From Anaerolinea sp. (GTDB taxonomy: Bacteria; Chloroflexota; Anaerolineae; Anaerolineales; Villigracilaceae), in assembly GCA_020723805.1 (NCBI GenBank), contig DYID01000022.1, forward strand, positions 1-57,717: 57,717 nucleotides of DNA. The letters are read 5' to 3'. Made by a program: the position numbers and the translations under genes. This document shows, in pieces, positions 2,980 to 55,139 of this stretch (its first letter is position 1; every line of letters starts with the position of its first letter). The notes beneath the pieces are model-generated. The model was not told the DNA's origin, did no database searches, and saw only the letters and a program-made list of their open reading frames with translations.

Positions 2980-3099
2980 GAGAGTGTCTAAAAGAATAGG
3001 CTAAAGATTTTTCTGCCACAGGGCTCACAGAGATCTCTGAGAAAAATCTCAAAAGCTCGGCGCTCTCTGTGGCGAGACCCACGACATTGGAAACTCCAT
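2980..3099 (+). mobile_element. MITE family A, copy 1
   Basis: This 120-bp non-coding palindromic element has the left tip GAGAGTGTCTAAAAG and the right tip GACATTGGAAACTC. Internal arms CCACAG and CTCTGTGG can pair. It is flanked by CAGGACT at 2973-2979 and 3101-3107, a 7-of-8 match to the 8-bp duplication seen at the other copies. It lies just past the stop of the glycosyltransferase gene. Confidence 0.8.
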
Positions 3100-3109
3100 G
3101 CAGGACTCA

Positions 3110-3959: not shown

Positions 3960-4065
3960 GGAGTGGTAAGAATAGGCTAAAGATTTTTCTGCCACAGAGA
4001 TCTCTGAGAAAAATCTCAAAATCACTGCGCTCTCTGTGACTAAGCCCGCGACATTGGACACTCCC
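3960..4065 (+). mobile_element. MITE family A, copy 2 (internally shortened)
   Basis: This 106-bp copy is in the same orientation as copy 1 and lacks about 12 bp of the inner palindrome. It is flanked by perfect 8-bp direct repeats CATTACGG at 3952-3959 and 4066-4073. The left tip is decayed (GGAGTGGTAAG), while the right tip GACATTGGACACTCCC is intact. Confidence 0.85.
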
Positions 4066-4073
4066 CATTACGG

Positions 4074-14560: not shown

Positions 14561-16222
<1,662 letters not shown>

Positions 16223-17186: not shown

Positions 17187-17304
17187 GAGAGTGTCTAAAA
17201 GAATGGGCTAAAGATTTTTCTGCCACAGAGCCACAGAGATCTCTGAGAAAAATCTCAAAATCTCTGCGCTCTCTGTGGCTAAGCCCACGACATTGGACAC
17301 TCCC
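17187..17304 (+). mobile_element. MITE family A, copy 3 (best-preserved copy)
   Basis: This 118-bp element has tips GAGAGTGTCTAAAAG and GACATTGGACACTCCC and inner arms CCACAGAG and CTCTGTGG. It is flanked by perfect 8-bp repeats CAAATCCC at 17179-17186 and 17305-17312. The right duplication overlaps the stop codon of the convergent gene. Confidence 0.88.
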
Positions 17305-17311
17305 CAAATCC

Positions 17312-19368: not shown

Positions 19369-19400
19369 GCGCAGGAGACGTTAGAGAACGTCTCCTGCGC
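19369..19400. repeat. Hairpin with GTTAGAGAAC core, copy 1
   Basis: Perfect 14-bp arms (GCGCAGGAGACGTT and AACGTCTCCTGCGC) close a 4-nt AGAG loop. Related hairpins are at 43234 and 55086. It lies just past the M20 peptidase stop and may also act as a transcript end. Confidence 0.7.
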
Positions 19401-24639: not shown

Positions 24640-24645
24640 TATAAT
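24640..24645 (+). promoter_or_regulatory. -10 box predicting a leaderless yqeC-mocA transcript
   Basis: TATAAT ends 7 nt before the ATG at 24653, so the start site of transcription would be the A of the ATG. Confidence 0.6.
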
Positions 24646-24652
24646 GTTTCGC

Positions 24653-26032
24653 ATGAGCCTCACCCTTGCGCGCGCTTTGCGGATGGAATCCGCCGACTGC
24701 GTTGCCTTCATCGGTGCGGGCGGCAAAACGACGGCGCTGTTCAAACTGGCGCGGGAATTGCCAGCCGCAATCGTCACTGCCACCACGCATCTCGCCGTCT
24801 GGCAAACCTCTCTGGCAGACCGTCACATCACCGCCGATGGAAATGCACTCGAAAGCATCGAGAATTTTCAAGGCATCCTCCTCGTCACGGGCAAGCCCGA
24901 AGGTGACCGCACCAAACCCATCTCGGAGAAACTACTCCACCGGCTGCATCAGTACTGCAAGGCGCACTCCCTGCCTCTGCTCATCGAAGCCGACGGCTCG
25001 CGCCAAAAACCGCTCAAAGCCTGGGCAGAGCACGAACCGCCCATCCCTCCTTTCGCCGATTTGGTCGTCCACGTGGCGGGGATGTCGGGGCTGGGCAAGC
25101 CGTTGAGCGACGAACACGTCCACCGCGCGGAGAAATTTGCGGCGTTGAGCGGTTTGCAGATGGGAGAGACTGTTTCCCTAAAAGCCCTCGCCAACGTGTT
25201 GACTCACCCTCAAAGCGGACTGAAGAACATCCCGCAGACCGCCCGCCGCGTCGTCCTGCTCAATCAGGCAGACACGCCTCAACTCCAATCGGCGGCTCAA
25301 ACCCTGACCTCGAGCCTGCTCCCGGCATATCAGGCTGTTCTCATCTCCAGCCTGCTCCACGACCACATCTACGCCGTTCACGAACCTATCGCAGGGATTG
25401 TCCTTGCGGCGGGCGAATCGAAACGCTTCGGCAAGCCGAAACAACTGCTCGACTGGAAAGGTCAGCCGTTTGTGCGGGCAGTGGCGCAAACCGCACTTCG
25501 GGCAGGACTTGCCCCCGTCGTGGTGGTGACGGGCGCAAATGCAGAAGAGGTCGCGGCGGCAGTGCATGACCTGAACGTGCTCCTCGTGCGGAACGAAGAC
25601 TGGCAAAGCGGGCAAGGCAGTTCGATACGCGAGGGGATAAAAGCCCTCACACCCCCTCCGTCACTTCGTGACACCTCCCCCAAATCCAAAGGATTTGGGG
25701 GAGGCTTGGAGGGGGTCAAGGTCGGCGGCGCAGTCTTCCTCCTCACCGATCAGCCGCAGGTGACGACAACGGTCATCCAGGCATTGAGGGAAAAACACGC
25801 CGAGGGGCTGTATCCCATCGTTGCGCCGATGATCATTGACCGGCGCGGCAACCCCGTCTTGTTCGACCGCTCGGTTTTCCCCGACCTGACGAACATCGCC
25901 GGCGACACGGGCGGGCGGGCGCTCTTCCACAAGCACCGCGTGGAGTATCTGCCCTGGCACGACGACCACCTCCTGCTGGATGTGGACACGCCCGAACAAT
26001 ACGAGCGTTTGATTGCGATGGAAGACCTATGA
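24653..26032 (+). CDS. YqeC-MocA fusion: molybdenum hydroxylase cofactor-maturation protein
   Basis: This protein of about 459 residues joins two domains. The N-terminal 230 residues match YqeC, an accessory family of selenium- or molybdenum-dependent hydroxylases (AFIGAGGKTTALFKLA P-loop-like, TATTHLAVWQ, LIEADGSRQKPLKAW). Residues about 240-459 are a MobA/MocA-type nucleotidyltransferase (GIVLAAGESKRFGKPKQLL, LTDQPQV, RRGNPVLFDR) that would attach CMP to the cofactor. A 66-bp palindrome inserts about 22 residues (TPPPSLRDTSPKSKGFGGG) before the LTDQPQV motif. The ATG at 24653 is preferred because the earlier ATG is part of the TATAATG promoter. It overlaps the next gene by ATGA. Confidence 0.88.
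   Translation: MSLTLARALRMESADCVAFIGAGGKTTALFKLARELPAAIVTATTHLAVWQTSLADRHITADGNALESIENFQGILLVTGKPEGDRTKPISEKLLHRLHQYCKAHSLPLLIEADGSRQKPLKAWAEHEPPIPPFADLVVHVAGMSGLGKPLSDEHVHRAEKFAALSGLQMGETVSLKALANVLTHPQSGLKNIPQTARRVVLLNQADTPQLQSAAQTLTSSLLPAYQAVLISSLLHDHIYAVHEPIAGIVLAAGESKRFGKPKQLLDWKGQPFVRAVAQTALRAGLAPVVVVTGANAEEVAAAVHDLNVLLVRNEDWQSGQGSSIREGIKALTPPPSLRDTSPKSKGFGGGLEGVKVGGAVFLLTDQPQVTTTVIQALREKHAEGLYPIVAPMIIDRRGNPVLFDRSVFPDLTNIAGDTGGRALFHKHRVEYLPWHDDHLLLDVDTPEQYERLIAMEDL
25651..25716. repeat. 66-bp nested palindrome inside the mocA domain
   Basis: Outer arms ACCCCCTCC and GGAGGGGGT enclose a GTCACTTCGTGAC hairpin and an inner stem CCTCCCCCAAATCC with GGATTTGGGGGAGG. It keeps the frame (22 codons). 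Confidence 0.8.
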
Positions 26033-26661
26033 TTTCAGCCCTCATCCTTGCGGCTGGCGAATCGAAACGCATGGGTCAACCCAAGATGCTGCTGCCCTGG
26101 GGAAAAGGCACCGTGCTGACGCATGTCATCTCTGTTTTTCGGGAGGCGGGCGTGGAGGACATCCTCGTCGTCACAGGCGGGGCGAGGGAACAGGTGGAGG
26201 CACTGGTCGCAGGGCTGGGTGTGCGGACGGTCTTCAACGAGGCGTTTCAAACGGGCGAGATGCTGTCTTCGATTCAGTGCGGGCTGCGTGCCCTCACCCC
26301 CCCGCCCCTCTCCCAATCCCCTGCGGGGACGCTTCGCGGGGAGAGGGGAGCAGCGGCGGCGCTGATTGGGCTGGGCGACCAGCCTCAGGTCCAGGCAGGA
26401 AGCGTGCGCCGGGTGTGCGAGGCGTTTTTAGAGACGAAGGCAAATCTCATCGTGCCGAGTTATCGAATGCGGAGAGGTCATCCGTGGCTGGCGGCGTATC
26501 CGCTATGGGATGACCTGTTGAGGTTGAAGCCGCCTGCCTCGCCGCGCGATTTCCTGAACGCACACGCGGCAGACATCCACTACGTGAACGTGGATGATCC
26601 CGCCATCCTCGCCGACCTCGATACGCCTGAAGACTACCGTCAGTGGCAGGCGAAACCGTGA
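26029..26661 (+). CDS. MocA-type molybdenum cofactor cytidylyltransferase
   Basis: This 210-residue nucleotidyltransferase is a paralogue of the preceding C-terminal domain. The N-terminal LILAAGESKRMGQPKMLLPWG is the nucleotide-binding motif, with LGDQPQVQAG (metal Asp), RRGHPWLAAYPL, and ILADLDTPEDY at the end. Family members transfer CMP or GMP to molybdopterin. A palindromic DNA segment encodes PPPLSQSPAGTLRGERG just before the GDQPQ motif, at the same place as in the upstream paralogue. Its start overlaps the YqeC-MocA stop by 4 bp, so translation is coupled. No molybdoenzyme is encoded nearby. Confidence 0.88.
   Translation: MISALILAAGESKRMGQPKMLLPWGKGTVLTHVISVFREAGVEDILVVTGGAREQVEALVAGLGVRTVFNEAFQTGEMLSSIQCGLRALTPPPLSQSPAGTLRGERGAAAALIGLGDQPQVQAGSVRRVCEAFLETKANLIVPSYRMRRGHPWLAAYPLWDDLLRLKPPASPRDFLNAHAADIHYVNVDDPAILADLDTPEDYRQWQAKP
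26291..26350. repeat. G/C-rich palindrome inside the second mocA
   Basis: CCCCTCTCCC pairs with GGGGAGAGGGG around a CCCCTGCGGGG hairpin. It is the same kind as the pyrG leader repeat at 14568. The coding frame is maintained. Confidence 0.75.
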
Positions 26662-39015: not shown

Positions 39016-39107
39016 TAGCACGCAGCGGGGCTGAAGCCGCCTGCTCAGTGTATGGAAGTCCTTCGGACTGGCGCAACAAGTCAGTTTCCACCGGCTTTTG
39101 TACACGA

Positions 39108-39240
39108 GAAAGTGTCTGAAAGGAAATTTCCATTGCTCCGAAAATGCGTAGGATGCGCTCTCTTGCGCATCCAGCGAGGTTACACCTGCCTTGGCGGGCG
39201 GTGCCAGGGGAGAACGTCGCTTACGTTACGCCCAGTGGTT
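39108..39240 (+). mobile_element. MITE family B, copy 2 (right end unclear)
   Basis: The left tip GAAAGTGTCTGAAAGG is followed by GCGTAGGATGCGCTCTCTTGCGCATCC and a GGCGGTGCCAGGGGAGAACGTCGC stretch, the reverse of copy 1 (4175-4323). I could not place a matching right tip, so the end is approximate. It occupies the gap between menA and menH. Confidence 0.65.
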
Positions 39241-55019: not shown

Positions 55020-55020
55020 A

Positions 55021-55139
55021 GAAAGTGTCTGAAAAGAGATTTCTATTGCTCCAAAAATGCGTAGAATGCGCTCTCTGGCGCATCCAGCGACGTTAGAGAA
55101 CGTCGCTTACGCGGAAACCACCGGTCTTCACATACTTTC
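55021..55139 (+). mobile_element. MITE family B, copy 3
   Basis: This 119-bp element has inverted tips GAAAGTGTCTGAA and TTCACATACTTTC (10 of 13 match), flanked by TTA and TCA. It contains GCGTAG.ATGCGCTCTCT.GCGCATCCAGCG and the AGCGACGTT / AACGTCGCT hairpin at 55086-55107 with the AGAG loop. It lies between ctaA and the HypA-like gene. Confidence 0.75.

Follow-up and report, generated by a model that had tools for sequence, protein, structure and literature searches.

In-frame palindromic repeats recurrently occupy one loop of two adjacent MocA-like genes in a family of Chloroflexota

We found that one loop of MocA-type NTP transferases is a recurrent hot site for two kinds of short palindromic repeat, here called elements A and B, across a family of Chloroflexota. 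Both elements are dispersed through the genomes of the family and lie in frame inside two adjacent paralogous genes, and many orthologues have the same loop empty. Structure prediction leaves the MocA fold of the occupied proteins intact. We consider it probable that selfish palindromes of this type insert widely and that selection purges most of them, the MocA loop being a place that tolerates their presence.

Two different palindromes at matching codons of adjacent genes

The window, that is, the whole stretch of DNA analyzed, is 57,717 nt long and belongs to a 3.69-Mb genome (G000), whose nearest relative in our set is G015; the genomes used are mostly assemblies from mixed samples. The features of the gene pair are as follows.

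24644..26032, + strand: M1, a YqeC-MocA fusion gene of 462 aa (open ORF, Pfam, family matches)
25637..25729, + strand: helix-to-strand loop of M1, 31 codons against the usual 10 (loop extraction and alignment, empty orthologues)
25651..25716, + strand: element A, a three-way palindrome of 66 bp that is in frame and encodes PPPSLRDTSPKSKGFGGGLEG (inverted repeat, fold z-score of -6.9, dispersed copies)
25674..25704, no strand assigned: central hairpin of A, 14 bp and perfect, with a 3-nt loop (inverted repeat)
26029..26661, + strand: M2, a MocA-like paralogue gene of 210 aa adjoining M1 (open ORF, Pfam)
26284..26358, + strand: helix-to-strand loop of M2, 25 codons against the usual 10 (alignment)
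about 26291..26351, + strand: element B, a palindrome apparently of BoxC/PIT/TM type, in frame, encoding LTPPPLSQSPAGTLRGERG (fold, 39 core matches, TM arm order)

The two ORFs are open and overlap by 4 nt. M1 matched the Pfam families YqeC (2.5e-36) and NTP_transf_3 (9.4e-34), and M2 matched NTP_transf_3 (1.3e-33); this domain, together with the predicted fold, places both proteins among the MocA-type NTP transferases. The fusion protein was matched in 135 of the 152 genomes of the family, and among named assemblies the M1 domain has its nearest relatives in Anaerolineales/Chloroflexi. When homologues were aligned, A in M1 and B in M2 were found at matching codons, each insert following the SIxxG helix and preceding the strand that leads to DQPQ. 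An earlier note on this DNA, made from the letters alone, had described a 66-bp nested palindrome in the fusion gene, a different G/C-rich palindrome in the next gene, their position just before the DQPQ motif and a reading frame kept through both; these descriptions were borne out.

Element A is a dispersed repeat of this family

The outer stem of A is ACCCCCTCC/GGAGGGGGT, and an inner hairpin is formed by GTCAC/GTGAC. Its DNA gave folding z-scores of -6.9 on the plus strand and -7.1 on the minus strand, and 0 of 200 shuffles folded equally well. A DNA search of G000 with A listed nine matches, and two of these fall on the query site. With a strict pattern, we found A in 61 of the 152 family genomes (122 copies as the table sum) and obtained 0 matches with the reversed-pattern control. 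In an even draw of 150 genomes across the class, seven of them from the window's family, two carried strict A. Both belong to that family, so the pattern occurred in 0 of 143 genomes from other families. As for presence in other Anaerolineae, a point raised in the earlier note, A is therefore spread through the family and missing from the genomes sampled outside it; judged from these pattern scans, it is lineage-specific to this Chloroflexota family among the genomes sampled. Searches of the open-access literature retrieved no earlier description of element A and no earlier account of inserts in the MocA loop.

Of the 122 strict copies counted, 118 distinct ones were examined, and 20 of them fall within an ORF that stays open for 60 codons or more to either side; the M1 loop holds six of these 20. 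A few of these assignments may be in the wrong frame, since the frame chosen was always the longest open one; the copy at L204, whose gene is on the other strand, is an example. The copy in M1 is common to G000 and G015, with 90.6% identity over 64 bases versus 87-88% in the flanks, and the 3-nt loop of its central hairpin reads AAA in the former and TTT in the latter. Since A is shared and its identity is close to that of the flanks, it predates the split of the two genomes and drifts like its surroundings.

Several other observations were made on A. In a long form of A, the arms of the central hairpin are separated by a variable, AT-rich stretch (L180-L209; in MocA loops, for example, L083, L097, and L147), and this form occurs both outside and inside MocA. 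The N-terminal YqeC part of the fusion ORF has an in-frame copy of A, too, in L074 and L092, close to aligned residue 29. Two GH13 alpha-amylase-family genes of G077 (L204:1120-2754 and L226:1046-2833) have A in a common loop, located between WYxWK and PNNW, with the two copies oppositely oriented. A structured RNA was considered and rejected: Rfam returned only a sub-threshold match to mir-150 (21.1 bits, the gathering score being 55).

Element B is abundant and frequently lies in open reading frames

Element B is G/C-rich and consists of the stem CCCCTCTCCC/GGGGAGAGGGG with two small inner hairpins; its minus strand reads CCCCTCTCCC, a loop, GGGAGAGGGG, and then GGGGTGAGGG. The fold is modestly unusual, with z-scores of -2.8 (plus strand) and -1.6 (minus strand), and 1 and 14 of 200 shuffles, respectively, were equally good. 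Because the fold is only modest, the repeat count is the stronger evidence for B: its core had 39 matches in G000 (24 on the plus and 15 on the minus strand, some being two arms of one copy) versus 0 for the reversed-pattern control. Across the family the core was found in 117 of 152 genomes, and the reversed control gave a single match, in G052. The earlier note had also placed this palindrome type in the leader of pyrG, and a short hairpin of similar sequence is indeed found there.

about 14565..14594, + strand: short, extragenic hairpin resembling B, in the leader of pyrG (sequence, CTP_synth_N)

The ATG of pyrG, a gene assigned by its CTP_synth_N match, directly follows at 14615.

The 30 core matches of G000 that were examined, out of the 39, correspond to 26 distinct copies, and for 15 of these, including the copy in the window, the surrounding ORF continues for at least 60 codons in each direction. 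A Pfam scan of 14 B-bearing ORFs, some of which overlap one gene, identified 10 genes with Pfam matches, while L017 and L021 had none. The genes encode a TatD DNase, a luciferase-like monooxygenase, a TRAM methyltransferase, a CHAT-AAA protein (two copies of B), two Eco57I-type methylases (one gene having two copies), a gamma-glutamyltranspeptidase, an FAD oxidase, an ABC transporter, and a SAM methyltransferase. B lies inside the matched domain in the TatD DNase and the luciferase-like monooxygenase. In the TRAM protein, one CHAT-AAA copy, the first Eco57I gene, and the gamma-glutamyltranspeptidase, it separates matched stretches or domains; in the remaining Pfam-matched genes it is outside the matched domain or at its edge. 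For B-bearing genes besides MocA, the in-frame status was taken from the open frame and Pfam alone, and N-terminal copies could precede the true start because the ORFs were defined from stop to stop. As a separate observation, an Eco57I-type methylase region (G000:C26:74331-75380; L216, L004, L027, and L029) contains four in-frame palindromes, two of each element, one of which directly precedes the NPPY motif.

The MocA loop is occupied repeatedly across the family

The M1 loop set comprised 130 loci from 128 genomes (30 from the initial search and 100 fetched), with 7 of the 135 M1-matched genomes omitted because of a weak match or an uncovered loop. The usual loop, from the SIxxG helix to the DQPQ strand, has 10 residues. 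Classified by motif patterns, with four rows re-anchored by hand, 82 of the 130 loops had 13 residues or fewer (mostly 10), 24 were A-type, six were B-type, and 18 were long with no recognized element. Seven of the 30 loops with A- or B-type DNA fold weakly (z above -3), and five of the 18 long loops with no recognized element fold well (z of -3 or below); some of the A/B loops are partial or decayed. Among 105 M2 loops classified by eye, six were A-type, one, that of the window, was B-type, and three had other long inserts. G000 carries B in M2, and its nearest relative G015 carries A-type DNA there, again as read by eye. The mycobacterial MocA 2we9 aligns with no insert at this loop. MocA is thus a conserved gene with in-frame insertion and insert-free orthologues, and since the usual loop of 10 aa lacks the added residues, they are not those of an ordinary conserved loop devoid of palindromic DNA. 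The earlier note's proposal of repeat insertion into coding sequence agrees with these data.

Length changes inside the element that keep the frame were seen between close pairs (L097 versus L132, and L076 versus L083), and L051 and L052 look like decayed remnants of an element. From these sequence comparisons we infer decay in frame.

We built an M1 tree from the alignment with the loop columns removed, by a quick method under LG+G4; its results, headed INDEPENDENCE, count changes of state without separating gain from loss. The A state needs 19 changes, 18 of them forced by well-supported (starred) branches, B needs six, all forced, and the usual state versus the rest needs 25, of which 17 are forced. 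A is weakly clustered on this tree, as the shuffled mean was 22.3 changes and 9 of 500 shuffles were as low as 19. Some sisters carry different elements, as in L074 with A versus L172 with B across a starred branch. On the M2 tree (104 rows), A requires five changes, and A or B versus the rest also five. Furthermore, six of the seven loci with an element in M2 have one in M1 as well (105 loci; Fisher 5e-4; two sister pairs included). The earlier view of unrelated palindromes at the same site is right in that the elements of the window differ in kind, but this is no one-off: the loop carries elements recurrently and family-wide.

The insert is predicted to be a disordered loop outside the MocA fold

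AlphaFold models of the M1 MocA domain (43 sequences) and of M2 (36 sequences) had mean pLDDT values of 92.6 and 92.3, respectively. In M1 the insert follows helix 80-91 and precedes strand 118-123, and in M2 it is flanked in the same way by helix 77-89 and strand 110-115. Confidence was lowest at the insert, where ten-residue means fell to 56 in M1 and 70 in M2 and three residues in each model were below 50, and the inserts were modeled with a three-residue helical turn only, containing no helix of four or strand of three residues. The M1 model superposed on Rv0371c (2wee) over 187 of 189 residues with a Z of 25.5, so that the MocA fold is predicted to be intact despite the insert. From the topology, the insert is expected to be away from the catalytic end, because it is attached to the start of a strand that carries DQPQ at its other end. 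A tolerated loop, one of two outcomes that had been envisaged beforehand, accords with these models; the other, domain-level evolution, is left unsupported because the inserts are low-confidence loops that lack such helices and strands.

How the loop may have come to be filled

In the explanation that we favor, A and B would be short non-autonomous palindromic repeats that have spread through the genomes of the family, probably inserted by some mobilizing activity. Copies inside genes would persist only where the frame stays open and the added peptide is harmless, with selection presumably acting as the main sieve. The MocA loop from SIxxG to DQPQ, being outside the ordered fold, would be a tolerant place, filled many times in M1 and several times in M2. 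Translation through the palindrome would add about 6 to 39 residues to the loop, leaving it disordered, inserted copies would later shorten or decay in frame, and the insert-bearing MocA enzymes would presumably remain functional.

Compared by eye, filled and empty loops place the insert with codon 4 (Leu) on one side and codon 9 (Gly) on the other. Of the 30 bases of the usual loop, roughly 14 to 29 are retained on the same reading, so the insertions were not always clean, and no clear target-site duplication was seen in these pairs. No mobilizing enzyme could be tied to A or B. RAYT was considered as the mobilizer and rejected, as the flanks (about 1.5 kb or less) of the seven Y1_Tnp loci of G000 (L042-L048) contain no A/B hairpin; the flank of L047 has one 12-base near-match and no hairpin. 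With one classifier, an element was recognized in 22 of 31 loop inserts versus 3 of 20 inserts of at least 13 aa elsewhere in M1 (Fisher 1.4e-4, the rows not being independent). This enrichment over other variable places of M1 hints at a preference beyond tolerance, and tolerance alone may be insufficient to account for the filling of the MocA loop.

The strongest competitor is a targeted hotspot, to which we give perhaps a minority share of belief: insertion machinery or microhomology would steer the elements to the loop DNA, which would then be preferred as well as tolerated. In its microhomology version, the C-run/G-run ends of the elements would meet the Leu-Pro...Gly codons of the loop. 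Besides the enrichment just described, the recurrent boundaries between codons 4 and 9, the six ORF-borne strict A copies in a single loop, and the co-occurrence in M1 and M2 speak for steering. A fixed orientation of A in the loop, suspected by eye, was rejected on counting 22 rows (13 forward, three reverse including one tie, and six undetermined), and the presence of both orientations argues against targeting, as do the different left flanks among copies, the 18 long loops with no recognized element, and the GH13 loop, which behaves alike in one genome. We think it less likely than not that the MocA loop is a landing pad to whose codons the elements are steered in M1 and M2 alike; if it were, a single protein loop would repeatedly capture unrelated mobile palindromes throughout the family.

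Rather improbable as a general account is exchange between the neighbors M1 and M2, or between genomes, which would have spread some of the loops in place of a separate insertion for each. The co-occurrence in six of seven loci fits exchange, and so do three individual cases: the M1 and M2 loops of G084 (L092) have CTGCGCTCCCTGCTC and TTTGGGGCAGGC in common, those of G119 (L083) match at the right end and over a section of the AT-rich interior, and the central hairpins of M1 and M2 are nearly alike in G015 (L050). However, the elements of the window are of different kinds, the central hairpins of L062 differ, sisters with different elements have common flanks, and transfer between M1 and M2 alone cannot account for the many changes within M1.

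We give still less credence to an adaptive loop, in which a Pro/Gly-rich insert or an mRNA hairpin would have been selected for altering the activity, partner binding, or expression of MocA. Recurrence in two paralogues and the persistence of A in M1 since before the split of G000 and G015 would fit such selection, but the short usual state is still the majority, unrelated sequences and lengths occupy the site, L051, L052, and L132 look decayed, A diverges at about the rate of its flanks, and the models show nothing more regular in the insert than a three-residue turn. Ordinary variation in loop length, with palindromes arising by chance, is scarcely credible: long loops with no recognized element exist (five of these 18 fold at a z of -3 or below) and B folds only modestly better than shuffles, but the A/B loops carry motifs repeated genome-wide, against 0 reversed-control matches in G000 and the single one in the family scan for B (G052), and chance was rejected on these counts.

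Because the same loop has been filled often and many orthologues lack an insert, the system amounts to a replicated natural experiment on proteins absorbing mobile DNA and makes tolerance versus targeting directly testable.

Comparison with known repeat families

Rickettsia palindromic elements (RPEs) are described, in the portions of the literature consulted, as short dispersed palindromes of several families found between genes and in frame in conserved genes (PMC2229807, PMC10969869). A and B resemble them as multi-copy dispersed palindromes lying in frame inside conserved genes. They differ in that the host is a Chloroflexota family and not Rickettsia, in length (about 60-100 bp versus about 105-150 bp for RPEs as given in those portions), and in that one loop has been filled repeatedly in orthologues and an adjacent paralogue. 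By analogy with the RPE descriptions, and with regard to the mode of working only, A and B appear to work like RPEs, a likeness drawn already in the earlier note. In-frame palindromic repeats, best known from Rickettsia, are thereby extended to a Chloroflexota family.

The BoxC/PIT/TM intrastrand-triplex repeat is present in E. coli K-12 as 23 copies, all of them intergenic, and is numerous in certain enterobacteria and cyanobacteria, according to the sections consulted of Holder et al. 2015 (PMC4666352). Compared by eye with Table 1 of that paper, the minus strand of B has the TM order CCCTCTCCC - GGGAGAGGG - GGGGTGAGGG, and by this arm order B appears to be of the BoxC/PIT/TM type. Unlike the E. 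coli K-12 copies as reported in those sections, copies of B also lie in ORFs (M2 and other long ORFs of G000), which places BoxC-type repeats inside open reading frames, and the copy in the window has a long loop with two extra hairpins. As far as our literature searches show, the repeated filling of one loop in two neighboring paralogues across the family, the lineage-specific element A, and BoxC-type repeats in ORFs would each be new.

REP/RAYT sequences and GTAG/CGTC-tagged palindromes are likewise dispersed palindromic repeats of bacterial genomes (PMC3733652, PMC2817692, in the parts consulted). A and B differ in having no GTAG end tag: neither a GTAG nor a CGTC end tag was present in the copies whose ends and interiors were read by eye, and the CGTC inside A varies among copies. 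MITEs with coding capacity (ERIC, Correia, and YPAL) are similar in being non-autonomous, hairpin-forming, and sometimes fused in frame, as far as the cited parts of PMC2229807 describe them; for A and B, the filled and empty pairs displayed no target duplication, and no parent transposon was identified among the Y1_Tnp genes.

Other repeats were noticed in passing. Near the Y1_Tnp gene L048 (G000:C35, about 13.3-13.6 kb) lie several GTAG-led hairpins, for example GTAGTGCGACATTAATGTCGCACTAC, which from their sequence look like a separate REP/RAYT family. The window contains another repeat family of 77 nt that includes CACAGAGATCTCTGAGAAAAATCTC, with three copies 82-96% alike (3024-3100, 3991-4067, and 17230-17306), and a 76-nt repeat with two copies 91% alike (39107-39182 and 55020-55095). 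The 76-nt repeat and the copies related to GACGTTAGAGAACGTC at 19377, 43240, and 55089 possibly represent a further dispersed element.
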